Of a DNA stretch of 29,941 nucleotides, positions 2,183 to 19,901 are shown piece after piece (the first letter of the stretch is position 1; each line of letters starts with the position of its first letter). The DNA lies in contig JASMDC010000044.1 in assembly GCA_030753015.1 (NCBI GenBank), positions 1-29,941 on the forward strand, in the 5' to 3' direction. The DNA is from Candidatus Undinarchaeales archaeon. GTDB taxonomy: Archaea; SpSt-1190; JASMDC01. The translations under genes were made by a program, and so were the position numbers. The notes beneath the pieces were generated by a model, which saw only the letters and a program-made list of their open reading frames with translations, did not search any database and was not told where the DNA came from.

Positions 2183-4057
2183 CTATGGGCGGCCCGGACA
2201 CGGCCCGCTTTGAGAGAGCCGGAGCAGTGCCCAGCCTGGGCCCATGGCGACCCTCTCGCCGCTGAGCAAAGGCCCGAGCGGTCCAACTTCGCCTGTGTCC
2301 ACGAGGTATACCGGTCGGGCCGAGCATACGAGAGAGGTGGCAGGGGAGAGATCTATCTCGTACCGGAGGTCCGAGGCGAGTATATGTTTCCGGTAGGAGA
2401 TGGCAGTACGCCCATCCCGCGCCATCACCACTTGGATGGCACGGGGGACTATGATGACCGCGTCCCTCTCGGTCCCGCGGATCGCCTGGGAGAGGGGGAG
2501 CTCTCCAGGACGTACGTCACCGAGTATGTGCTCAGACCCTGATTCGGAGATCACGAGCCCCATTAATTTGCCAGGCGTTCCGATCGCGTGTGAAGCCACT
2601 TCTTCTATATCGGCCGGGAGCAAGGGCGGACTGGAGAGGAGAGGGACCATCGCGCTCATCCCTCGCTCACGCTCTTCCACTAAGAACTTCAACCACGGTT
2701 CGTTAGATATTTCCAGGTACCGTGAATCCATCGGTGGTCTCCACAACAACGCGAGATTTGCGAACAGCATGAGCGCGCTGGCCACCATCACGACAACGAG
2801 GAACGCGAAGTACCGTTCGCCGCGCCGGGCACAGTTGATCCCATGGGCAGCGAGCAGAAGAACCGCGGGCATCAGCGGTTGCACATACCGGTTCTTGTTA
2901 ACACTCCAGTTCTCGTTGGCGGCCAGGAGGAGGAATGTCGGGAGGATCCAGAGAACGAGCAGGACGGCCTGTTCACGGTCCCGGCGACACAGGTCAGCGA
3001 GCCCGATCAGGGCAAGGGCGGACAGTACGGTACCCAGGGAACGGAGGATGAGCAAGGGGATGAACAGCGCCACGGGTGATGGGAATCCCGGTGTCCGGAC
3101 GATACGGTCGTGGAAAGGCCAGTTCAGCAATCCCATGAACATGAAGTCGCGTCCCAGGAATCGGTGGGTGAACATGTACTTGTCCCTGCCAAAGGTGAAC
3201 CGCATCGGATCGCACAGCTCCAGCTCCTTGTAGGCGGCAGGCTCGCAGAACAGGATGCAACCCTGGATGGGGTGGATGAACACGCTCCCGCATGCCTGCT
3301 GGTATACCAGCATCCACGGGAGGGCGGTCATGAGCCCACCGATGGAGAACAGCGCCAGCCGACGCCACCGATGAGGGCCTCGGCCGTACCGCCAGACGCA
3401 GGCGGGGAGCAGCAGCACCAATGGGTTGGACATCCCTGCTACGGCCCCCAGGGCGAGGCCTGCCGCAAGGGGTTCCCCCGAAGCTCGCCTGCGGTGGAGC
3501 ACGGCGAGGAGCACCGTCGCCCCGGCAAGTGTCACGACGTTGAGCACCTGGTCGGCGAAGAGGAGCACGCCTATCGGGTCCATGAACTCCTGCGGCGGTT
3601 GCACCGCCGAGTACAGGACCACGGCGTTCAGGCTCCCGAGCGCACCGAGCACAAGAGCGGACGGCGTCCCAGCACCCGCTCCCTCGGCAGCCACGAGGAG
3701 CGCCAGGAACACAACGCCGGAAGCGAGGGCGGCGACGAGGTAAATACCGTGCGTTGCCGTGAGCGAACCCGCAGCAGCGATCACGGTGGACGCTCCGATC
3801 TCGCGCGAGTGATGGTCATTCCCAAGGTCCATGCGTCGCTCGGGTGACGGTGGATCCTGATCGTTCGGGTCCAGGTCGATCAGCCGGCCGAGCATGCCTG
3901 CGGCGGCCTCTAGCGGTTCTGGCAATCGCTGAACGTACGAGAGCTTCACGTCCAGGGCCGCGACGTACATGGCGCCAATGACCACGAGCAGCGCCACCGC
4001 CGCCAGAGTGCGGGATGTTCCTTCCACGTCCTTGATGGATGCCTCCCATGACAACAC
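2183..4057 (-). CDS. Polytopic membrane protein, possible GT-C type glycosyltransferase
   Basis: A 624-residue protein with one N-terminal membrane helix (about residues 16-36), a long polar loop with Asp/His-rich sequence (about 37-90), then some nine further hydrophobic segments up to about residue 430, and a soluble C-terminal domain of about 190 residues. The architecture and the N-K-N-R-Y-V-Q-P-L-M-P stretch near residue 395 resemble lipid-linked-sugar-dependent GT-C glycosyltransferases (PMT/ArnT/AglB-like), but I see no decisive catalytic motif. A GTG start at 4057 is taken because AATTATAG at 4080-4087 (minus strand) is the right distance upstream; a GTG at 4027 is an alternative. It is divergent from the exported ferredoxin operon, with only 31 bases between starts. 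Confidence 0.65.
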   Translation of the reverse strand: MLSWEASIKDVEGTSRTLAAVALLVVIGAMYVAALDVKLSYVQRLPEPLEAAAGMLGRLIDLDPNDQDPPSPERRMDLGNDHHSREIGASTVIAAAGSLTATHGIYLVAALASGVVFLALLVAAEGAGAGTPSALVLGALGSLNAVVLYSAVQPPQEFMDPIGVLLFADQVLNVVTLAGATVLLAVLHRRRASGEPLAAGLALGAVAGMSNPLVLLLPACVWRYGRGPHRWRRLALFSIGGLMTALPWMLVYQQACGSVFIHPIQGCILFCEPAAYKELELCDPMRFTFGRDKYMFTHRFLGRDFMFMGLLNWPFHDRIVRTPGFPSPVALFIPLLILRSLGTVLSALALIGLADLCRRDREQAVLLVLWILPTFLLLAANENWSVNKNRYVQPLMPAVLLLAAHGINCARRGERYFAFLVVVMVASALMLFANLALLWRPPMDSRYLEISNEPWLKFLVEERERGMSAMVPLLSSPPLLPADIEEVASHAIGTPGKLMGLVISESGSEHILGDVRPGELPLSQAIRGTERDAVIIVPRAIQVVMARDGRTAISYRKHILASDLRYEIDLSPATSLVCSARPVYLVDTGEVGPLGPLLSGERVAMGPGWALLRLSQSGPCPGRP

Positions 4058-4088: not shown

Positions 4089-4700
4089 ATGGAACGGCCC
4101 TCCAGGCGGGCGGTCCTCGCTGCGCTCCCACGCGCCGCTCTCGCCGCTTTCATTTTATCGGTAGGGTTAGCTCGAGCGGCCCGCGTACGCCGTTCCCTCG
4201 GGCTCGCACTACCAGAGCGCATCATCCGCCCACCCGGCGCGCTCCCCGATAAGCAGTTCAAGGCAGCGTGCGTGCGGTGCACGAGATGCGTGGACGTCTG
4301 CCCCACAAAGGCTATCGAGAAGGTGGGCATGGAGGGCTGGCCCGAGGAGTATGGCACGCCCCGGCTCGTCACCAAGTGCCTCTTCTGGGACGGGTGCACG
4401 CAATGCGTGGACGCCTGCCCCACGGACGCCCTCAGCCCCTTCGATCCGGACAAGGTGCGCCTGGCAATGGCGGAAGTCATCGAGTCGACCTGCATCGTCC
4501 ATCTGCAGGAGAAACAGTGCTTTGTATGCCAGGAGTTCTGTCCCTTCGATGCCGTGAAGACCGTGATCGCACCGGACAATGAACCTCCCTACGACAAGGT
4601 GCCCCAGATCTCGGCCACCGAGTGCACAGGGTGCTTCTTCTGCCATGAGGTGTGCCCGACGGATCCCAAGTCCATCAAGATGAGCCCGGTGATGCCATGA
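4089..4700 (+). CDS. Tat-exported multi-cluster 4Fe-4S ferredoxin (NapG/MauM-like)
   Basis: A 203-residue protein. A twin-arginine signal (SRRAVLAAL, then a hydrophobic stretch to about residue 30) predicts export of the folded protein. It is followed by four Cys clusters: CVRCTRCVDVCP (about 60-71), a CxxxxCxxCxxxCP cluster (about 95-108), a CxxCxxxCP cluster around residues 140-147, and CTGCFFCHEVCP (about 178-189). NapG/MauM proteins of this type work with NapH-like membrane proteins, and one is encoded on the other strand at 978-2150. The ATG at 4089 is preferred over the TTG at 4086 on promoter spacing. Its TGA overlaps the next gene's ATG (ATGA at 4697-4700), so the two are translationally coupled. 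Confidence 0.85.
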   Translation: MERPSRRAVLAALPRAALAAFILSVGLARAARVRRSLGLALPERIIRPPGALPDKQFKAACVRCTRCVDVCPTKAIEKVGMEGWPEEYGTPRLVTKCLFWDGCTQCVDACPTDALSPFDPDKVRLAMAEVIESTCIVHLQEKQCFVCQEFCPFDAVKTVIAPDNEPPYDKVPQISATECTGCFFCHEVCPTDPKSIKMSPVMP

Positions 4701-5647
4701 CCCGGGACGACGAGAACGATCGCCCCGAGAAGGCTGCGGAGGCCCTCGAGTCGCTCAGTGCACGAAAACTCTCCCGTCGCGCCATGGTGCGAGCGTTCCT
4801 CCTGGGTGGACTGGGTGCCCTGGGGGTTTGGCACATGAGCCGGCCGGGCGAACTGCCACTGGACGTCGTGCGACGCGCGACACGGGACATGCCGTCCTGC
4901 AAGGTAACGGCCGAAGGGGTTCGGGAGTGGACCTCGCAGGAAGAGCTTATCGCTGGGCTCAGGAAGGGGCTCGACGGGATAGGTGGTATCCGTTCTATCG
5001 TCCCCAACGGCTCGACGGTCTTCATCAAGCCCAACCTCGTCCGCCACGACAACCAGTTCGATCCTCGGGTGGTCCCGGCCCTGGTCCAGCTCATCGAGGA
5101 GGCGGGGGCCGAGCGCGTGTTCGTGGGGGACAACGCACCGGCGCCTACGCGCTACACGGCGGACAGTATCGGCCTTCTGCGCCATCTACGCCAGACCGAC
5201 GCCGAGTTCGTAGAGGTGGAGCGCGGTACGTTCTCCATGGTGGATATCCCACATGGTGTGGCCGTCAAGGAAGCCCCCATGCCCAACCAGATGCTCGATG
5301 CGGACGTGCTTGTGAACGTGGCGTTCTTCAAGAAGCACCCTCACTACAAGGTGAATTATAGCCTCGCCCTCAAGAACCTCATGGGACTGGTCAGGTTCCA
5401 GGACATCGTCCACCTCGTCCATCCCGTGCTCGAGGACGGTATCTCTGACCTCGTATCGACGTTGACGCCCCAGCTGAATATCGTCGATATGCTCGGGACG
5501 CCCGCAAAAACAGTCGTCATGGGCACCCACCCCGCCGTGGTCGACCGAGTGGCCATGGACCTCTATGGGGAGAAGGACATACCCATCTATCTCCAGCGCG
5601 CGTTCGCGCGTTTCTCCGAGGTGCTCGCAGAATGCGACGGATCGTGA
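4697..5647 (+). CDS. Tat-exported DUF362 family protein
   Basis: A 316-residue protein starting at the ATG that overlaps the ferredoxin stop; a longer frame upstream lies inside the ferredoxin gene. It has a cytoplasmic charged leader, then a twin-arginine signal (SRRAMVRAFLLGGLGALG, about 29-46), then a full DUF362 domain: FIKPNLV (about 113-119), VFVGDNAP, LVNVAFFKKHPHYKVN, SLALKNLMGLV and a late HPAVVDRVAMDLYG. The biochemical role of DUF362 is not established; the family is often fused to or encoded beside ferredoxins. Here the domain has almost no Cys of its own, so any Fe-S clusters would be supplied by the coupled ferredoxin. It overlaps the lipoprotein gene by 16 bases. Confidence 0.8.
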   Translation: MTRDDENDRPEKAAEALESLSARKLSRRAMVRAFLLGGLGALGVWHMSRPGELPLDVVRRATRDMPSCKVTAEGVREWTSQEELIAGLRKGLDGIGGIRSIVPNGSTVFIKPNLVRHDNQFDPRVVPALVQLIEEAGAERVFVGDNAPAPTRYTADSIGLLRHLRQTDAEFVEVERGTFSMVDIPHGVAVKEAPMPNQMLDADVLVNVAFFKKHPHYKVNYSLALKNLMGLVRFQDIVHLVHPVLEDGISDLVSTLTPQLNIVDMLGTPAKTVVMGTHPAVVDRVAMDLYGEKDIPIYLQRAFARFSEVLAECDGS

Positions 5648-7431
5648 ACGGACAGCCCGCCACTTTCCTGTTGCTCGCCATCCTCCTCGCGGGCTGTTCC
5701 TCTACACCTCAGCCCTCCGGAGCCGATCCCACGGCCACCGCCACAATCGTTCCCTCACCGACGTCACTCCCCTCCCCCCGAGCATGGAAATGCGAGGGGC
5801 TCAGCTCTGGCGTGGACCGCTCCATATGCCTCCTCGCCATGGCCAGGTCACGTGCCCACACGGGTGGCACGTGGGCCGTTAGCCTGTGCGAGGCGCTAAC
5901 CATCGAACCCTTCCGCAAGGAGTGCGTCGATCAGGTGCTCCCCGCCACCCCGCCCTGGAGCGCTCCCGTTCTCCAGCGGCTGTGCGCGCTCGACGAGTCC
6001 CGAGAGGGATGTACTGCGCTGGCAGAGGCCAGGGCGACCGGGGACCCGTCCCGATGCCCGTCCCTGGACACGCATATCGGCAGGGGTTGTGTGATGACCG
6101 TGGCAAGGGAACTGGCGATGGCGGGCGACCAGCGAGCGGGCGCAGCGTGCACCGTGTTCGAGGATCCCTTCTTCGTCGCCCGTTGCGCACGAGCCGCGGC
6201 TCGTGCCGCTGTACCGGACCACCCTGAACTGGCCCGGCAGGTCTGTGCCCCGGTCCTCGATGCAATCTTTCACTTCCACTGCATTCAAGGGGCCGCGCTG
6301 CTCGCAGGCTCGACCGACGCGGTACAAGCACTGTGCGACGACGTCAATTTCACAGTCTCGCACACCAGATGTCTCATAGACGCTCTCGCTCGCACGCGGC
6401 TGGCAATCCACACGAACGTGAGCATCCCCGTGTGCCGCTTGTCACCGGAGTGGGAGTCGAAGTGCACCGCTGACGTCGCCACCCGGGTAGCCGTCGAGGA
6501 CCACGACCCGGTCGCTGACCTGTGCGCCGGGCTGGAGGATGGCGCGGACTGCGCAGTGGCCGTCGTACGGGTCATCGGCCGCACCGACCTCGAGGCCGCC
6601 ACGGCCCTGTGCGACCGCTTCGCCACGGGGACCTTCGTCCATGACAACTGTATCGCTGCTGCTGTCTCATCGTCCCCCTGCACCGATCCCGCGTTATGCG
6701 CGGACGCGTGCGCTGGTGCATCCACGCCAGTCGAGCGTGACGGCTGCCTGCTCTCCATCATGGTCCGGGTCGAGCCGAACGCATGGCAGGACGTCTGCAA
6801 AAGGGCCGAATCGGAGGTGACACGGCAGGTGTGCACGGCGGCATCCGGAGTGGTGGCGGGCGATGATGGCGCGACCACCTGCGGCGGCCTCCCGGACCGA
6901 AGGGACCGGGAGGCGTGCTTCGGGATCATCGTACCGAACATCGCTCCCGACGGCCTCGCACTTCTGGCGGACGCTTGTGCTGCATTGGACCCTCCCTCCC
7001 CCGCGTGCCTAACGGCCATTGCCACCGAGAGAGCGCGCCGCCGCTTGCCCGAACCCGCCGCCCCCTGCCTCTCGCTCCAGGAGACCGCTGCCCGGGACTC
7101 CTGCCTCCTCGAATCGTTCGCCGAGACCATCGGTCACGATGTCACTGCAGCGCGTGCGATGTGCGATCTGTGCGGTGACGGACCGGAGCACGACATGTGC
7201 ATGGCCGCGGCCGTAGCTGCCGACCTAGCTCCCGAGGCCCTGCCCGTGGCCCTGGACGTCTGCGATGGCCTCGAGCTCTCGGAAGAAACGGACAGCTGCA
7301 GGTTCGGGGTGGCGCGCGCTCTTGCTGCCAACGATCCCGTGATGGCGGCCGAGGTGTGCGAGCACGTCATCAGTGTGTTCTGGCGGGACAAGTGCTCCAC
7401 GGTCGCCGCGGACCATCGAGAGAGTGACTGA
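5632..7431 (+). CDS. Cys-rich repeat lipoprotein, unknown family
   Basis: A 599-residue protein with a signal peptide ending in a lipobox (LLAGC, Cys at about residue 22), then a Ser/Thr/Pro-rich linker to about residue 50. The rest, some 540 residues, is made of helical-looking units, each with a Cys pair. I count 40 cysteines including the lipobox, arranged as 18 C-x(8-12)-C pairs, mostly with 11 residues between them, separated by Ala-rich stretches. Examples are CTVFEDPFFVARC, CKRAESEVTRQVC and CEHVISVFWRDKC. Most likely it is an alpha-solenoid on the outer face of the membrane with one disulphide per unit. It lacks CxxC ferredoxin and CxxCH haem motifs. It is the last gene of the exported-ferredoxin/DUF362 operon, so a link to extracytoplasmic redox chemistry is plausible. 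Confidence 0.8.
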   Translation: MRRIVNGQPATFLLLAILLAGCSSTPQPSGADPTATATIVPSPTSLPSPRAWKCEGLSSGVDRSICLLAMARSRAHTGGTWAVSLCEALTIEPFRKECVDQVLPATPPWSAPVLQRLCALDESREGCTALAEARATGDPSRCPSLDTHIGRGCVMTVARELAMAGDQRAGAACTVFEDPFFVARCARAAARAAVPDHPELARQVCAPVLDAIFHFHCIQGAALLAGSTDAVQALCDDVNFTVSHTRCLIDALARTRLAIHTNVSIPVCRLSPEWESKCTADVATRVAVEDHDPVADLCAGLEDGADCAVAVVRVIGRTDLEAATALCDRFATGTFVHDNCIAAAVSSSPCTDPALCADACAGASTPVERDGCLLSIMVRVEPNAWQDVCKRAESEVTRQVCTAASGVVAGDDGATTCGGLPDRRDREACFGIIVPNIAPDGLALLADACAALDPPSPACLTAIATERARRRLPEPAAPCLSLQETAARDSCLLESFAETIGHDVTAARAMCDLCGDGPEHDMCMAAAVAADLAPEALPVALDVCDGLELSEETDSCRFGVARALAANDPVMAAEVCEHVISVFWRDKCSTVAADHRESD

Positions 7432-13827: not shown

Positions 13828-16800
13828 ATGCCACGTATCACGAACATCACTATGAAGGGCTTCAAATCCTTCGCGCGGAAGACGTCCGTGCAGTTCCCGG
13901 TGGACTTCAGTGTGGTCGTGGGGCGCAACGGTTCGGGGAAGTCGAACATCGTCGACGCCCTCTGCTTCGTTCTCGGGACCGCCCGCTCAAAGGTGATGCG
14001 GGTGAAGAACTCCGCCGAGCTCATCTTCAACGGGGGCAAGGACGGCAGGGCATCCGACAACGCGGAGGTGACGGTCACCTTCGACAACCAGGACGCCGGA
14101 TTCCGGATCGACAGCGATGCCGTGAAGGTCAGCCGGCTCGTGAAATCCAACGGCCAGGGTGTCTACCGGCTCAACGACAAGCGCGTCACCCGGCAGGAGA
14201 TCCTGGAGGCTCTCTCGCACGCCCGGATCAATCCCGATTCCTACAACATCGTGCTCCAGAACGACGTGACCCGGGTCATCGATATGAGCGCCCGGGAACG
14301 GCGCGGGTTCATCGACGACATCGCTGGCATCGCCTCCTACGAGGAGCGAAAGGTGAAGGCGTTGCGCGAACTGGATAGCGTCGAGCGCCGGATGGAGGAG
14401 ATCCAGATCAGGCTCACAGAGATGCGTCGCATCCTCGACGAGATGCGCGAGGAGCGGGACAAGGCCGTGAAGCTCCGCCAGCTCAAGGAGGAGAAAGGGC
14501 TGGTGGAGGCGACGCTGTGTCGCTCGCGTGTGAAGCTCGACGAAGAACGCATCACCCGCCAGCAGAAGCACATCGCCGAGCTCGAGGAGAAGCGGTCCAA
14601 GATCCTCTCCCTGCGCCAGGAGGAGGAGGGTACACTGTCCACGAAGCAGGCCAAGCTCTCCCAGGTCGAGAAGCGGCTCCATGATGAGGGCTACGGCGAC
14701 CAGGTCCGGCTGACCGAGAGGCGCGCCACCATCGACGGCGAGATCACACTCCTTAAAGAACGGCGCAAGGGCAAGGAGGAGGAGCTGTCGGCCAAGCAGC
14801 AGCGCCTCAAGGACCTCGTCCACGAGCTGGCCGAGAACACCAAGGGTCTCGGGCAGGCGAAGAAGGCGCTCATCGAGCTGGGGCTGCGGGAGAAGTCGCT
14901 TGCCGACGAGATCGAGCAGGTGGGAGGCCGCATCCGCAAGCACCGCAAGGACCATGACTCGGAGTGGGCCTCGCTTGAACAGGAGCGTGAAGTGCTCGAG
15001 CGCGAGGAGCGGGAGCTTTCCGCGCGCGAGACGACGCTCAGAGAAGAGCTTGCCAAGATCCGGGCGACCCTCGAGGGCAGCACCGGCAAGCGTGTGCGCC
15101 TCGACGACCTGCGCAAGAACAAGACAGGTCTCGAGAAGGAGGAGGTCGAGCTCACGACCGGTATCTCCACGAAGGGCGAGGAGGCAGCACGCCTCACCAG
15201 GGCACTGAGCGACACGAAGCACGCTCTTGAGAAGAAGGAGCAGCAGTACTCCCGCGTGCGAGACAAGCTCGAGCGGCAGGCACGTGTCAGCCCACCCGTA
15301 GAAGCGGTGCTCCGGGTCGGTATCTCCGGTGTCGTGGGCAGGGTCTACGACCTCATCGAGTTCTCCCCTGAGCACGCTGCTGCCATCATGGCCGCTGCCG
15401 GGGCGCGGATCAACGCCGTTGTCGTGGAACGCGACACGGTCGCCGTGGAATGTGTCCAGTTCCTCAAGAAGAAGCGCATCGGCAAGGCACGGTTCCTCCC
15501 AATGGACAAGCTCCGGTCGCCCCCCCATTCCAGAGAGGCGGAGGGTGTCGGGCGTGAAGCGATGGGGCTCCTGCGCGACCATGTCCGCTGCGAGCCACAC
15601 CTAGAGCCCATGCTCCGCTACGTGCTAGGGAACACGGTGCTCGTCGAGACCATCGAGGAGGCCCGCCGCCTCGGCTTCGGCCGGGCACGGATGGTGTCCC
15701 TTGACGGCGACGTGGCAGAGTCCTCCGGTGCGGTGATGGGGGGCCACAACAAGACGGAACGTATCACCGAGGACATCGGTGCGCTCCGCAGCGACATCGG
15801 GCGCATGAGCGGGAACGTCGCCAAGATGGAGCAGCACCGGGACGTGCTGGAGGAGGAGCTCATCCAGATGCGCCAACGGCGCGCCGAGGTGAAGATCAGC
15901 CTCGAGACCATCAGGGCAGACCTGAGCGACATGGAGGGAGTGGACGCCGCCACCCTCGAGAAGCGCGAGAGCGAGCTCGACAAGGAGCTCAGCTCCGTGA
16001 CAAAGGGCGTTGAGGTCCACCGCGAGAAGCTCGCCAATATTCAGAAGAAGGTCAGTGCCCGTAATACGGAGGTGGAGAACGAGGCGCTCGACAAGGAAGA
16101 GGCGCGTCTGACCGAGCTCCGGGATCAACTGCGACAAGTGGGCCAGGAGCGCGCCGTCAAGGAGCGGCAGAAGCGGCACGAGTTCGAGGCCAACATCCAG
16201 ATGTACAAGACGACCCTGCGCGAGGAGCAGAAGGCCACCGTCACGCTCAAGAGCGAGCTCGCTGCAGTTGACAAGGACCTTGCTGGCAAGGAAGGTGAGC
16301 TTGCGAAGGTCGCAGCTGAACTTACCGAGATGGACGAGAAGCTCCAGACCTTCATCGCCGAGCAAGAGGCTGTCCGGGGCGACATCCGTTCGTCCGAGAA
16401 GCGCATCGCAACGCTCGATCGTGAGTCGGACGGCCTGTCCATCACCCTGGAGAACGACAGCGAGAAGCTCGGGGAGATGGAGGGCGAACTCGGGGAGCTG
16501 AGGCGAGAGCTGGGGCAGTTCTCATTGTTCCTCTCCGACGACGAGGACCAGACGGTCACTCGTCTGGACGCCAGGTTCAAGTCCGTGGAGCGACGCATCG
16601 AGCGCCTGGGCGGTGTCTCCGAGTACATGCTAGAGCGGTACGAGGAGCGCGAGAAGGAGTACAACGGGAGCATCGAGCGCAAGACCCTCCTAGAGAAGGA
16701 GAAGGAGGTCATCCTCACCACCATGGCTGAGCTGGAGGCGAAGAAGAAGGAGGTGTTCATGGAGGCCTACGTCAAGGTCAAGGACCACTACTCTGCCGTT

Positions 16801-17211
16801 ATCGGCTCCATCGAGGGCTGGTCCGGCGACCTCTCCCTGGAGAACGAGGAGGAGCCATTAGAGGGCGGCCTCGTGCTCCATGCTCATCCCAAAGGCAAGC
16901 GCCTCATCCGCCTGGAGAGCATGTCCGGCGGCGAGAAGGTGCTCACGGCACTCTCCCTCCTCCTGGCGCTGCAGAAGTTCGACGGCGCTCCTTTCCTAGT
17001 GCTTGACGAGGTGGACGCCGCTCTGGACAAGGTCAACCTCGACCGATTCACCGAGCTGCTGCGGGAGACCGCCTCGAAATCACAGCTCATCGTCATATCT
17101 CACCACAACGAGTCGCTCATGCGCACGGCCGACCAACTCATCGGCGTCTCTGCCCGGCAGGGTCAGTCCATGCTCGTGGGGGTGAACCTCAATTCCTACT
17201 CAGTCGAGTGA
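13828..17211 (+). CDS. smc: Chromosome segregation ATPase SMC
   Basis: A 1127-residue SMC protein, slightly short for the family (about 1150-1200). The N-terminal head has Walker A GRNGSGKS at 32-39 after the typical MKGFKSFARKTSV. A coiled coil runs from about 165 to 490; the hinge is about 495-650 (GISGVVGRVYDLIEF, LDGDVAESSGAVMGG); the return coil reaches about 985. The C-terminal head has signature SGGEKVLTALSLLLALQ near 1031, Walker B FLVLDEVDAALDKVN near 1054 and the D-loop. It acts as a homodimer in chromosome compaction and segregation, usually with kleisin ScpA and ScpB. No gene with a recognisable ScpA motif follows. The stop at 17209-17211 lies inside the open frame of the next gene. 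Confidence 0.97.
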   Translation: MPRITNITMKGFKSFARKTSVQFPVDFSVVVGRNGSGKSNIVDALCFVLGTARSKVMRVKNSAELIFNGGKDGRASDNAEVTVTFDNQDAGFRIDSDAVKVSRLVKSNGQGVYRLNDKRVTRQEILEALSHARINPDSYNIVLQNDVTRVIDMSARERRGFIDDIAGIASYEERKVKALRELDSVERRMEEIQIRLTEMRRILDEMREERDKAVKLRQLKEEKGLVEATLCRSRVKLDEERITRQQKHIAELEEKRSKILSLRQEEEGTLSTKQAKLSQVEKRLHDEGYGDQVRLTERRATIDGEITLLKERRKGKEEELSAKQQRLKDLVHELAENTKGLGQAKKALIELGLREKSLADEIEQVGGRIRKHRKDHDSEWASLEQEREVLEREERELSARETTLREELAKIRATLEGSTGKRVRLDDLRKNKTGLEKEEVELTTGISTKGEEAARLTRALSDTKHALEKKEQQYSRVRDKLERQARVSPPVEAVLRVGISGVVGRVYDLIEFSPEHAAAIMAAAGARINAVVVERDTVAVECVQFLKKKRIGKARFLPMDKLRSPPHSREAEGVGREAMGLLRDHVRCEPHLEPMLRYVLGNTVLVETIEEARRLGFGRARMVSLDGDVAESSGAVMGGHNKTERITEDIGALRSDIGRMSGNVAKMEQHRDVLEEELIQMRQRRAEVKISLETIRADLSDMEGVDAATLEKRESELDKELSSVTKGVEVHREKLANIQKKVSARNTEVENEALDKEEARLTELRDQLRQVGQERAVKERQKRHEFEANIQMYKTTLREEQKATVTLKSELAAVDKDLAGKEGELAKVAAELTEMDEKLQTFIAEQEAVRGDIRSSEKRIATLDRESDGLSITLENDSEKLGEMEGELGELRRELGQFSLFLSDDEDQTVTRLDARFKSVERRIERLGGVSEYMLERYEEREKEYNGSIERKTLLEKEKEVILTTMAELEAKKKEVFMEAYVKVKDHYSAVIGSIEGWSGDLSLENEEEPLEGGLVLHAHPKGKRLIRLESMSGGEKVLTALSLLLALQKFDGAPFLVLDEVDAALDKVNLDRFTELLRETASKSQLIVISHHNESLMRTADQLIGVSARQGQSMLVGVNLNSYSVE

Positions 17212-17269: not shown

Positions 17270-18067
17270 ATGGAGCTGTTCGGATTCGATCCGTCCAAGC
17301 GCTACGTGGTGCGCCTGGCCGACCGGTGGTCCGACATCGCCTTCCTGCACGAGCAGGGAGTGGTGCAGCTGCGGGAGAAGGGCGAGCCCCAGGGGACATA
17401 CTATCTCTCCCCCGAGGACCTGCGGGTGCGCAACGAGCCCAAGCTCTATGGCGCGGTGTTCTCGTCCCTCTCGGACCAGTACCGAACCATCGCCAGCGCG
17501 TTCTCCATCGCCCAGCGGATCGCTGAGAGCCTGGGGCATGCCATCTCTCTCAAGGACTTCCTCAACCTTGTCACCCTCCTTGAAAAGGAGGTGACACTCA
17601 AGCAGGCGGCCGTGCACGTCCCCGGCCACGGGACGGTCACTGAGACCGAGCGGCGGACCATGTTCGCCGAGCTCAAGCGCCTGCGCTACCAGATCCTCGA
17701 GCGGATCTACGAGGTGCGGCACGCGAGGGAGGACTTCGACCACGCCATGGAGCGACTTGGTGAGGGCGACGACATCCACTTCGCTGCAGAGCTGCAGCGC
17801 ACGAACCTCATGCGCATGGAGCGTGCCGAGCGCGAGCTCGAGCAGTCCATCAAGGAGTACAACACGATGGACGAGACCCTCTTCACCCAGGAGGGGGCGT
17901 TCATCATGGACCCTGCCGGTGAGGACATCGTGGTCGAGGTGTACCGCATGCCCGAGAAGGTGCCGGAACAGAAGGACATGCCCCCGCCCAAGCCTGTGCA
18001 GAACACGCCTGTCCCGACCATGGAGCGCCACCGGCCCCTGTCGCTCGAAGCGCAGCCGCCGACATAG
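17270..18067 (+). CDS. SMC-linked protein of unknown family
   Basis: A 265-residue protein from ATG 17270. The frame is open back to 17186 and reads like protein there (S-D-D-V-A-W-L-E-E-R-D-L-G), but contains no ATG, GTG or TTG before 17270. Residues 1-55 look like a small alpha/beta domain (FGFDPSKRYVVRLADRW, GTYYLSPEDLRVRN). Residues 60-200 are helical with a coiled-coil-like Arg/Glu-rich part (ERAERELEQSIKEYNTMDETL). The tail is Pro-rich. The position after smc would suit ScpA, but I see no kleisin signature. The last 17 codons before the stop (V-P-T-M-E-R-H-R-P-L-S-L-E-A-Q-P-P) are duplicated at 19183-19233. A GTG at 17208 overlaps the smc stop but lies in another frame. Confidence 0.7.
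   Translation: MELFGFDPSKRYVVRLADRWSDIAFLHEQGVVQLREKGEPQGTYYLSPEDLRVRNEPKLYGAVFSSLSDQYRTIASAFSIAQRIAESLGHAISLKDFLNLVTLLEKEVTLKQAAVHVPGHGTVTETERRTMFAELKRLRYQILERIYEVRHAREDFDHAMERLGEGDDIHFAAELQRTNLMRMERAERELEQSIKEYNTMDETLFTQEGAFIMDPAGEDIVVEVYRMPEKVPEQKDMPPPKPVQNTPVPTMERHRPLSLEAQPPT
18011..18061 (+). repeat. 51-bp direct repeat, left copy
   Basis: This is the 3' end of the SMC-linked gene. It matches 19183-19233 at 48 of 51 positions. The three differences (CAC/CAT, CTG/CTT, CTC/CTG) are all third-position and silent in the gene's frame. Confidence 0.9.
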
Positions 18068-18105
18068 ACGGTCACCCTTGGCCTAAGCGTGGGTGCGGTT
18101 CCGGG

Positions 18106-18164
18106 TTTGTAATTTTATAAACAGAAAGATATAAATTACGCCCATCTGTATATATAATTACAAA
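18106..18164. promoter_or_regulatory. Inverted-repeat operator and TATA region of the HEPN/MNT pair
   Basis: TTTGTAATTTTATA at 18106-18119 and TATATAATTACAAA at 18151-18164 form an inverted repeat with 13 of 14 pairs and a 31-base spacer. A third, partial copy (ATAAATTAC, 18131-18139) lies between them. The right arm contains the TATA-like box about 20 bases before the ATG at 18174. This suits autoregulation of a toxin-antitoxin unit. Confidence 0.55.
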
Positions 18165-18173
18165 GCGATTGTC

Positions 18174-18524
18174 ATGAAAAGCGAGGATCATCTGCGGAAG
18201 GCCCGGAGGCTAGAAGCGTCAGCAGGGAAGCTCATCTCCTCGAGTGGTGATGACAGCGAACTCGCATGCGAGGGATTCTACGGTGCTGCGCAGCATTTCT
18301 TATCGCATGGTCTCGAACGGCGCCTCGGGCGTCACATCGACACTCATGAGGGCATGAGCAGGCTCTTGAGAAGGAACGACTTCAACGAGATCGCTGTGGC
18401 GTTCGATAGGCTCGACATCATCCGTCACGGCCAGTGGTACGGCAGAAAAGGGAACGGTGATGTTGCCAAGGGAGCTTCCGCCCTCGTATCCCGCATCAGG
18501 AGGTGGGCGGTTGAGGAAGGATGA
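18174..18524 (+). CDS. HEPN domain protein, probable toxin of a HEPN/MNT pair
   Basis: A 116-residue all-helical protein. Helix 1 (KSEDHLRKARRLEASAGKLIS), a second helix (ACEGFYGAAQHFLSHGLERRL) and THEGMSRLL follow the layout of the HEPN/UPF0332 group. R79-x(5)-H85 (in FDRLDIIRHGQWYG) matches the Rx(4-6)H motif that forms the RNase site in active HEPN toxins. In characterised HEPN/MNT systems the HEPN protein cleaves RNA and the nucleotidyltransferase inactivates it by adding AMP to a Tyr near that motif; Tyr89 in W-Y-G could be such a site. It overlaps the MNT gene by 14 bases. The AT-rich flanks and weaker codon bias suggest horizontal acquisition. Confidence 0.8.
   Translation: MKSEDHLRKARRLEASAGKLISSSGDDSELACEGFYGAAQHFLSHGLERRLGRHIDTHEGMSRLLRRNDFNEIAVAFDRLDIIRHGQWYGRKGNGDVAKGASALVSRIRRWAVEEG
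18498..18505 (+). promoter_or_regulatory. Shine-Dalgarno site setting the MNT start
   Basis: AGGAGGTG lies five bases before the TTG at 18511, in frame with the nucleotidyltransferase domain, and inside the end of the HEPN gene. It decides for this start over distant in-frame ATG codons around 18457. Confidence 0.65.
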
Positions 18525-19110
18525 CAGGAAGGCCATCGACGAGTTCGTCGAGCGGGCCCGGACTCTGTCTGGCCTTGAGGCCATCATGCTCTTCGGTTCC
18601 CTCGCTAGGGGTGAAGAGGACAAGCGTTCAGATATAGATCTACTCGTTATCGTGAAGGTGGGTGCTCAGGAGGCCCTTGTTGAGCCCCTTATGGATATCG
18701 CTTCGAGCGTTGATACGCACCGTCCAGTGCGTCCTGTGATCACCGATCTCAGCGATTATGATCCGGACTTTCTTCAAAACGCGTTACGGGAGGGGATAGT
18801 GCTCTTCGGTAAGGTTGTGATCTCCCCGGACACCTTGGCTCTCATGCCGTACACTATCATCTCGTACTCACTGAAGGGTATGACAGCACGCGGGAAGGTG
18901 GCCATCCACCGGGCCGTCCATGGCTACCGTGTGGAGACCAGGAAAGGGGGACGGACGTACGTCAGCGAACGTTCCGGTCTCGTGGATAAAGATGCGGTCC
19001 ACAAGCTCGGGCGCGGCGTCATCGCCCTCCCTGTGGAGGAAGCACGGGGATTCACCCGGGTGCTCGAAGAACTGGGGGCATCGTACTCGATGAGAAAGGT
19101 GTGGTTGTAG
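18511..19110 (+). CDS. MNT-type minimal nucleotidyltransferase, probable antitoxin
   Basis: A 199-residue protein from TTG 18511. The N-terminal domain carries the polymerase-beta-like signature: G29-S30 in LFGSLARG and the metal-binding pair D41/D43 in SDIDLLVI. It also has a C-terminal extension of about 90 residues (TIISYSLKGMTARGKVAIHRAVHGY..., RGVIALPVEEA) seen in a group of archaeal nucleotidyltransferases. In HEPN/MNT modules this enzyme AMPylates and silences the HEPN toxin. An upstream ATG at 18457 would extend the protein deep into the HEPN gene and lacks a ribosome site. An inverted repeat (TACAGATT at 19118-19125, AATCTGTA at 19141-19148) follows the stop and could mark termination or the edge of the cassette. 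Confidence 0.82.
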   Translation: MRKDDRKAIDEFVERARTLSGLEAIMLFGSLARGEEDKRSDIDLLVIVKVGAQEALVEPLMDIASSVDTHRPVRPVITDLSDYDPDFLQNALREGIVLFGKVVISPDTLALMPYTIISYSLKGMTARGKVAIHRAVHGYRVETRKGGRTYVSERSGLVDKDAVHKLGRGVIALPVEEARGFTRVLEELGASYSMRKVWL

Positions 19111-19182
19111 CTTTCATTACAGATTCGTTAATCCCTTAATAATCTGTATTTCTAACTACATACTCCCACCATGATCTCAAGA

Positions 19183-19233
19183 GTCCCGACCATGGAGCGC
19201 CATCGGCCCCTTTCGCTGGAAGCGCAGCCGCCG
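19183..19233 (+). repeat. 51-bp direct repeat, right copy
   Basis: This is the second copy of the 3' end of the SMC-linked gene, preceded and followed by unrelated sequence. After the matched codons it reads GCG TGT ATA AGT rather than ACA TAG, so the gene's stop codon is not part of it. Confidence 0.9.
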
Positions 19234-19291
19234 GCGTGTATAAGTGTTTTAAATCCGAGGGCCCAATACTACGACAGTGGTAGGGCAAGTT

Positions 19292-19510
19292 ATGCGCATG
19301 GGCAGGTCCTTACCTCTCCTGGCTCTCGTGCTGGCCCTCATCCTTTCCAGTACCACGGCCGTCGAGAGCTGCTCCGAGGGCGGTTACTGCCCCGAACGCA
19401 CGCTGACCTTCACAAAGCACGTCATCGCGGACAAGCTCGATCAACCGAACTCGGTGGCCTCGGCGGACCTGGACGGCGACGGCGTCCTGGACGGCGGCCA
19501 GCGCCAATAG
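19292..19510 (+). pseudogene. Truncated secreted FG-GAP repeat protein
   Basis: The frame opens with MRMGRSLPLLALVLALILSS, a good signal peptide, followed by a short Cys-containing stretch and the start of an FG-GAP/VCBS calcium-binding repeat (SVASADLDGDGVLD). The repeat breaks off exactly after its D-x-D-x-D-G-x-x-D loop, and the frame stops after six unrelated residues. Family members are normally several hundred residues long, so this is a 5' remnant. A TATA-like TTTTAAA lies at 19247-19253. The sequence after about 19490 belongs to the 3' part of the acetyltransferase on the other strand. Confidence 0.7.
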
Positions 19511-19879
19511 GTCCAGTCCTTGTGCACGGGCTGCGGCCAACACTTCACCGAACAGGACGCGCCCGACACCATTTCCCCGGAACGACGGGTCCACCGCCAG
19601 GTCGTGGACGTACACGCACTCGGGATCGGGCACGGGCATGTCCTGCAGAAAGTTGATGGGCGCCACCCAACCGGACCGCGCCGGATGGAACACGATGTAG
19701 CCTGCGACGACACCGCCCACATCTAGCACGTGGCATCCATCCTGATGCATGACAATCTTGTGGAGGAAGGCCTCGGCGCTCTCCAGGTAGCACGACGCGT
19801 AGCATTGGAACTGGATGGCCAATATCCTGGGTATGTCGGAGTGGGTCATGGGGCGCACGGTGCCGTTCTGCAGGTCCAC
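19310..19879 (-). pseudogene. GNAT acetyltransferase with truncated C-terminus
   Basis: From a GTG at 19879 the frame encodes a GNAT N-acetyltransferase: an N-terminal VRPMTHSDIPRILAIQ, then VAGYIVFHP, then DLAVDPSFRGNGVGRVLFGEVLAAARAQGLD, which includes the acetyl-CoA-binding R-G-N-G-V-G. After LLALAAVQ the normal ending of the fold (a Phe-Tyr-x-x-x-G-F-type segment) is absent. Instead the frame reads the complement of the neighbouring signal-peptide gene until a stop at 19310, giving an Arg/Gly-rich tail with no family resemblance. The start is set by the shared TATA-like box at 19902-19910; a TTG at 19900 is less likely. It could still make a stable protein, but probably not a normal enzyme. 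Confidence 0.65.
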
Positions 19880-19901
19880 GTACCAATACTCGACCGCCAA
19901 C

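Follow-up and report, generated by a model that had tools for sequence, protein, structure and literature searches.

A HEPN/MNT gene pair and its promoter probably form a minimal mobile unit that was inserted at the 3′ end of an SMC-linked gene and left this gene end in two copies. The pair lies in a 29,941-nucleotide stretch of DNA from a Candidatus Undinarchaeales archaeon (hereafter, the window), in which a repeat search revealed a 51-nt direct repeat at positions 18011–18061 and 19183–19233, with 48 of 51 identical bases (94%) and a spacing of 1172. Codon comparison of the left, gene-attached copy and the right, displaced copy (both on the + strand, the latter in frame) showed that all three mismatches fall on third codon positions and are silent; if changes were random, three of three would be silent with a probability of about 0.02. 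The ungapped score of the repeat is 42, compared to a mean of 10 and a 99th percentile of 20 at 1500 geometry-matched random places, which include some draws on cassettes. A preliminary description of this DNA had reported the duplication, its silent-only changes and a right copy without the gene’s stop, all of which were borne out; it had also assigned the repeat to the last 17 codons, and the location at the gene end stands, but the repeat stops one codon before the gene’s end, which reads ...EAQPP-T-stop. Accordingly, the gene goes on with ACA TAG after the left copy, and the right copy continues in frame to ...QPPACISVLN without a stop. The 117 contigs of the assembly (3.85 Mb) together hold just these two copies of the 51-bp unit and no third, so that a dispersed repeat was rejected, and the cassette DNA is present in a single copy. 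Searches of genome collections with the SMC-linked protein yielded no relative, and the search with the SMC protein returned at best proteins of only ~30–35% identity, that is, no close relative of the locus.

Upstream of the repeat, the + strand encodes an intact smc (13828–17211; TIGR02169 SMC_prok_A, 725.9 bits), followed by the SMC-linked open reading frame (17270–18067, +), whose translated 3′ end is the duplicated target; it matched no Pfam or NCBIfam family and is ScpA-like by position only. The cassette opens with an AT-rich palindromic region (18106–18164, +; GC 0.28–0.38), an inverted repeat with 20-nt arms at 18106–18125 and 18145–18164 that presumably acts as promoter/operator. It is followed by the gene for a HEPN-fold protein of 116 aa, the putative toxin (18174–18524, +), the gene for the MNT nucleotidyltransferase, the putative antitoxin (18511–19110, +; TTG at 18511 is the likely start in a reading frame open from 18457), and an AT-rich spacer of 72 nt from the MNT stop to the right copy (19111–19182, +; GC 0.33). 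Open reading frames and GC content thus agree with the preliminary description that only the pair, its promoter and AT-rich flanks lie between the copies; no integrase is encoded there, and there is no room for a transposase. Third-position GC is 0.67–0.68 in the cassette genes, lower than the 0.75–0.90 of their neighbors. Two features adjoining the right copy had been overlooked: a TATA-like sequence resembling an archaeal promoter directly after it (TATAAGTGTTTTAAAT; 19239–19254, +) and a 5′ fragment of ~69 codons, including a signal peptide, of a secreted FG-GAP gene (19294–19498, +; PF13517, 3e-4 over its last part). The segment 19183–19498 would then be a relic of the target gene’s former downstream neighborhood. 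Within 19294–19900, the FG-GAP fragment stands tail-to-tail with a GNAT gene (19500–19900, − strand; PF00583, 8.5e-13) whose 3′ end is truncated against it, the match to PF00583 ending at position 98 of 116 without the C-terminus; this indicates a deletion junction, the second rearrangement of the region, near 19498.

The HEPN-fold protein has no Pfam match. Its structure model (pLDDT 89.5) gave the HEPN proteins 2hsb and 1wol as best PDB matches (TM 0.69, with weak E-values), and in other archaea a HEPN gene often lies immediately before full-length MNT relatives. The MNT protein matches PF18765 (2.2e-11) and PF01909 (4e-9) and carries the GSX10DXD motif as defined in PMC7641770, with G47, S48, D59 and D61 invariant in 24 relatives. 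An MNT with this motif and an adjacently encoded HEPN partner are as in type VII-like systems, but the RX4HXY motif of class I HepT toxins is absent from the HEPN family, most of 12 relatives having R-X2-[H/Q/R]-X-Y-G instead (RHGQWYG in the window). As RX4HXY is absent, the window HEPN is class II-like at most (PMC7641770). Its toxicity, and a neutralization by adenylylation in which the nucleotidyltransferase would add nucleotides to the HEPN protein, are putative.

The border signature recurs at other archaeal loci. MNT relatives were found in 169 of the 394 genomes searched across the domain, and none of the plasmids and phages searched gave an MNT match. We tested the 41 MNT loci with enough flank, using a border-repeat score of 19 as cut-off: 13, the window included, reached a score of at least 19 at both cassette edges and 28 had no border repeat. 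The positives come from ten genomes (the window, L096, L129 to L137, L147 and L246), and L138 was recognized by eye as a fourteenth border-repeat locus. Their repeats are 19–192 bp long, and ungapped right copies begin 1–101 nt past the MNT stop. Among 1500 geometry-matched random places, 16 reached score 19, falling to about five (0.3%) once draws on cassettes or integron-like contigs, identified by locus or position, had been set aside by hand; the first random control, too, had partly sampled such cassettes or contigs. The remaining matches of about five are mainly repeats inside proteins. Against a background of 0.4%, 13 of 41 corresponds to a binomial probability of ~1e-21, a calculation that treats loci as independent although a few cassettes are mutually related. 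Weak repeats at L143, L249 and L247 were scored as negative; the repeats at L229 look like a dispersed palindrome and were rejected as gene ends. In single-contig genomes, where MNT pairs are mostly of the short-MNT type, no border repeat was seen except at L273 (positions 2561–3796; genome G548), where a HEPN/MNT pair is accompanied by a diverged 96-bp repeat that begins at the MNT stop and represents the 3′ end of a small membrane-protein gene; this repeat is ambiguous, since a paralogue lies nearby and the gene family is locally repeated. A search for further cassettes in the phylum of G571 gave none new.

Where border repeats could be assigned, they mostly represent the 3′ or 5′ end of a neighboring gene. 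Gene 3′ ends are duplicated in the window and at L096, L131, L132, L134 and L136. L096 (positions 4628–5784; G000:C61) is a second HEPN/MNT cassette in the window’s own assembly, the kind of further case at another gene end that the preliminary description had proposed to look for; its repeat is a 19-bp exact gene 3′ end that reads WQLLAG-stop on both sides, with TGA versus TAG. The ends read EFAKYL-stop versus EFARYP-stop at L132 and KLGEK-stop versus KLGEKK-stop at L136, and the L131 repeat includes both the last codons and 3′ untranslated sequence. Gene 5′ ends or junctions are duplicated at L129, L138 and L130: the 192-bp repeat of L129 spans the junction of two genes, and at L138 the two copies of the leuS edge differ in their start codon, GTG versus ATG. 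At L135, next to a contig end, part of the coding sequence of a flippase-like gene is repeated. L133, L137, L147 and L246 were left outside the gene-end assignment, and the AT-rich repeat of L246 may represent an operator instead of a gene end.

Complementarily, one locus offers an empty site. The L134 cassette (G655) is flanked by a triosephosphate-isomerase-like gene and a winged-helix gene in convergent orientation; these two genes are ~30 bp apart without any cassette in G688 and G736, and ~300 bp apart in G746, G747 and G749. The displaced end, which adjoins the isomerase gene, has the sequence KLIEALKALARRGES-stop and the attached end KPIEALKALARRESP-stop. The cassettes of L132, L134 and L136 share 68–78% DNA identity over 930–980 bp, starting ~60 nt ahead of HEPN and ending at about the MNT stop, and stand beside unrelated genes; no terminal sequence shared among cassettes was seen. 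That related cassettes are bracketed alike at unrelated genes suggests that these units move without an integrase and leave the target gene intact.

How the border copies diverged bears on an alternative in which an activity supplied in trans makes a plain insertion, duplicating 20–200 bp of the target, with the copies then diverging in place. The variable repeat lengths suit it, as do the exact short repeats at L096, L130, L137 and L147, which may reflect recent events or primary insertions, and there is a precedent in restriction-modification systems, some of which insert with long, variable target duplications on the order of 100 bp (PMC3874152, PMC3031569). We nevertheless consider this account unlikely. 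In total, 29 of the differences between coding border copies are silent and 12 are replacements (pS 0.29, pN 0.037; p 2.7e-10 against a neutral mix), the row for leuS at L138 being out of frame and contributing zero differences; the resulting pN/pS of 0.13 compares with a value near 0.5 that we estimate for a decaying target duplicate. Moreover, displaced copies keep their frame, often with their own, different stops (L132, L134, L136). Judged from their sequences, the border copies look like alleles of two lineages rather than a decayed target duplication. Given the silent bias and the retained frames and stops, incoming DNA would have supplied one end, with the resident end being kept as the other.

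Integrase-type elements that enter at gene 3′ ends restore the gene end and leave the displaced end on the far side. The cassettes could therefore be remnants or satellites of a site-specific integrative element, served by an integrase in trans and with the repeats as attL and attR; a synonymous copy indeed restores the gene end here and the displaced end lies on the far side. This is very improbable, as the target sequence differs at every locus, several targets are gene 5′ ends, border repeats are unrelated between loci with no common core or terminal sequence, and related cassettes without an integrase occupy unrelated genes. Assembly could also have joined contigs from a cassette-bearing strain to those of a cassette-free one. 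All clear border-repeat positives are draft assemblies, and a second strain would be expected to diverge silently, but the differing bases lie 20–35 bp from the junction in the window and the joined sequences have no overlap, which would make a k-mer misjoin or bubble collapse unlikely, and junctions within ~100 nt of the MNT stop recur at 13 loci in ten genomes, far above the random rate. We thus rate such an artefact as extremely unlikely. That the gene end was duplicated by coincidence, unrelated to the cassette, is scarcely conceivable: the stopless right copy and the other rearrangement junction near 19498 could be taken that way, but 12 other scored cassette loci, one of them in the same assembly, have borders of this kind too. 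The signature at these loci and at the one recognized by eye, mostly at unrelated gene ends, the empty site in relatives of L134 and the excess of silent differences support the small, integrase-less unit of the preliminary description, placed at a gene 3′ end that a diverged, mostly synonymous copy restores; a site-specific integrase mechanism found no support, since targets differ and cassettes have no common terminal sequence.

Few mobile gene pairs of archaea are as abundant as HEPN/MNT pairs, whose mode of movement, to our knowledge, has had no explanation so far. In the insertion model that we favor, entry would occur by recombination with DNA from a related lineage, the gene end serving as homology. 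The incoming DNA would supply one version of the SMC-linked gene end, the attached left copy and the displaced right copy being two lineage versions of the same end, and the resident end would be pushed 1.17 kb downstream, beside the relic of its former neighbor. Either a single crossover would integrate an excised circle carrying a gene end, or homology would serve at one end while the other end is joined illegitimately; the circle route may fit somewhat better because the border repeats are short and tight. Once in place, addiction would guard the insertion from loss via recombination between the repeats. As a broader and rather doubtful possibility, HEPN/MNT pairs might be self-sufficient selfish units that travel as small circles or fragments with one host gene end, are integrated by host recombination at the matching end without breaking the gene, are kept by addiction and spread between related archaea.

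Several known systems share part of this behavior. The restriction-modification case is attributed to Nobusato et al. (2000) and Furuta et al. (2010), and reported from Helicobacter pylori strains, in the passages of PMC3031569, PMC3874152 and PMC1643837 that mention it. As there, a small, putatively addictive module without a transposase is flanked by a long, variable direct border duplication, here seen as 19–192-bp brackets at 13 loci and an uninterrupted target in the relatives of L134; unlike there, the module is a HEPN/MNT pair, the hosts are archaea, the targets are gene ends and the copies have diverged silently. It is these features, a toxin–antitoxin pair in archaea, at gene ends and with silently diverged copies, that are new relative to the precedent. 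Horizontal mobility of HEPN/MNT modules has been described, and recent insertions were seen when relatives in Thermus and Deinococcus were compared (PMC2701414); this 2009 survey does not contain the phrase ‘direct repeat’ and describes no border duplication. The two-gene HEPN plus MNT architecture agrees with these modules and with class I HepT/MntA (PMC7641770), but the window MNT has an extra C-terminal domain and the window HEPN lacks RX4HXY. Bacteria are known to undergo homology-facilitated illegitimate recombination, a process also invoked for type VI effector–immunity modules (PMC5361080), where, similarly, one end is anchored by homology, the other is joined without homology and the old end is displaced downstream. 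In that case, however, effector 3′ ends are replaced within one cluster, whereas here unrelated genes are targeted with short duplications at both ends. From integrase-type elements, with which they share the diverged synonymous copy that restores the gene end, the present units differ in having neither their own integrase gene nor an attachment sequence common to the family, in their size of about 1 kb and in also occupying gene 5′ ends.

Duplicated, silently diverged gene ends thus provide a way to map, date and test HEPN/MNT movement, and extend the restriction-modification phenomenon to toxin–antitoxin pairs. A unit of ~1 kb without a transposase is able to settle even at the edge of leuS and leave leuS unbroken.

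The window’s assembly (G000) is larger, at 3.85 Mb, than those of nine same-class relatives (0.6–1.1 Mb), and its estimated contamination is 5.0%. On two of its short contigs (L099 and L100; G000:C82 and C87), several imperfect attC-like repeats, spaced every 1–1.8 kb, surround HEPN/MNT-type genes; these are possibly integron-like cassette arrays, archaeal or contaminant. Finally, a scan of ~0.88 Mb (partly masked) revealed few other gene-end brackets. In one of these, at L184 (positions 1196–2891; G705:C6), a 60-bp duplicate (58/60) that resembles the 3′ part of a tRNA, although ARAGORN calls no tRNA at it, encloses a single gene for an ATPase-like protein of 467 aa, a similar bracket around a different cargo.
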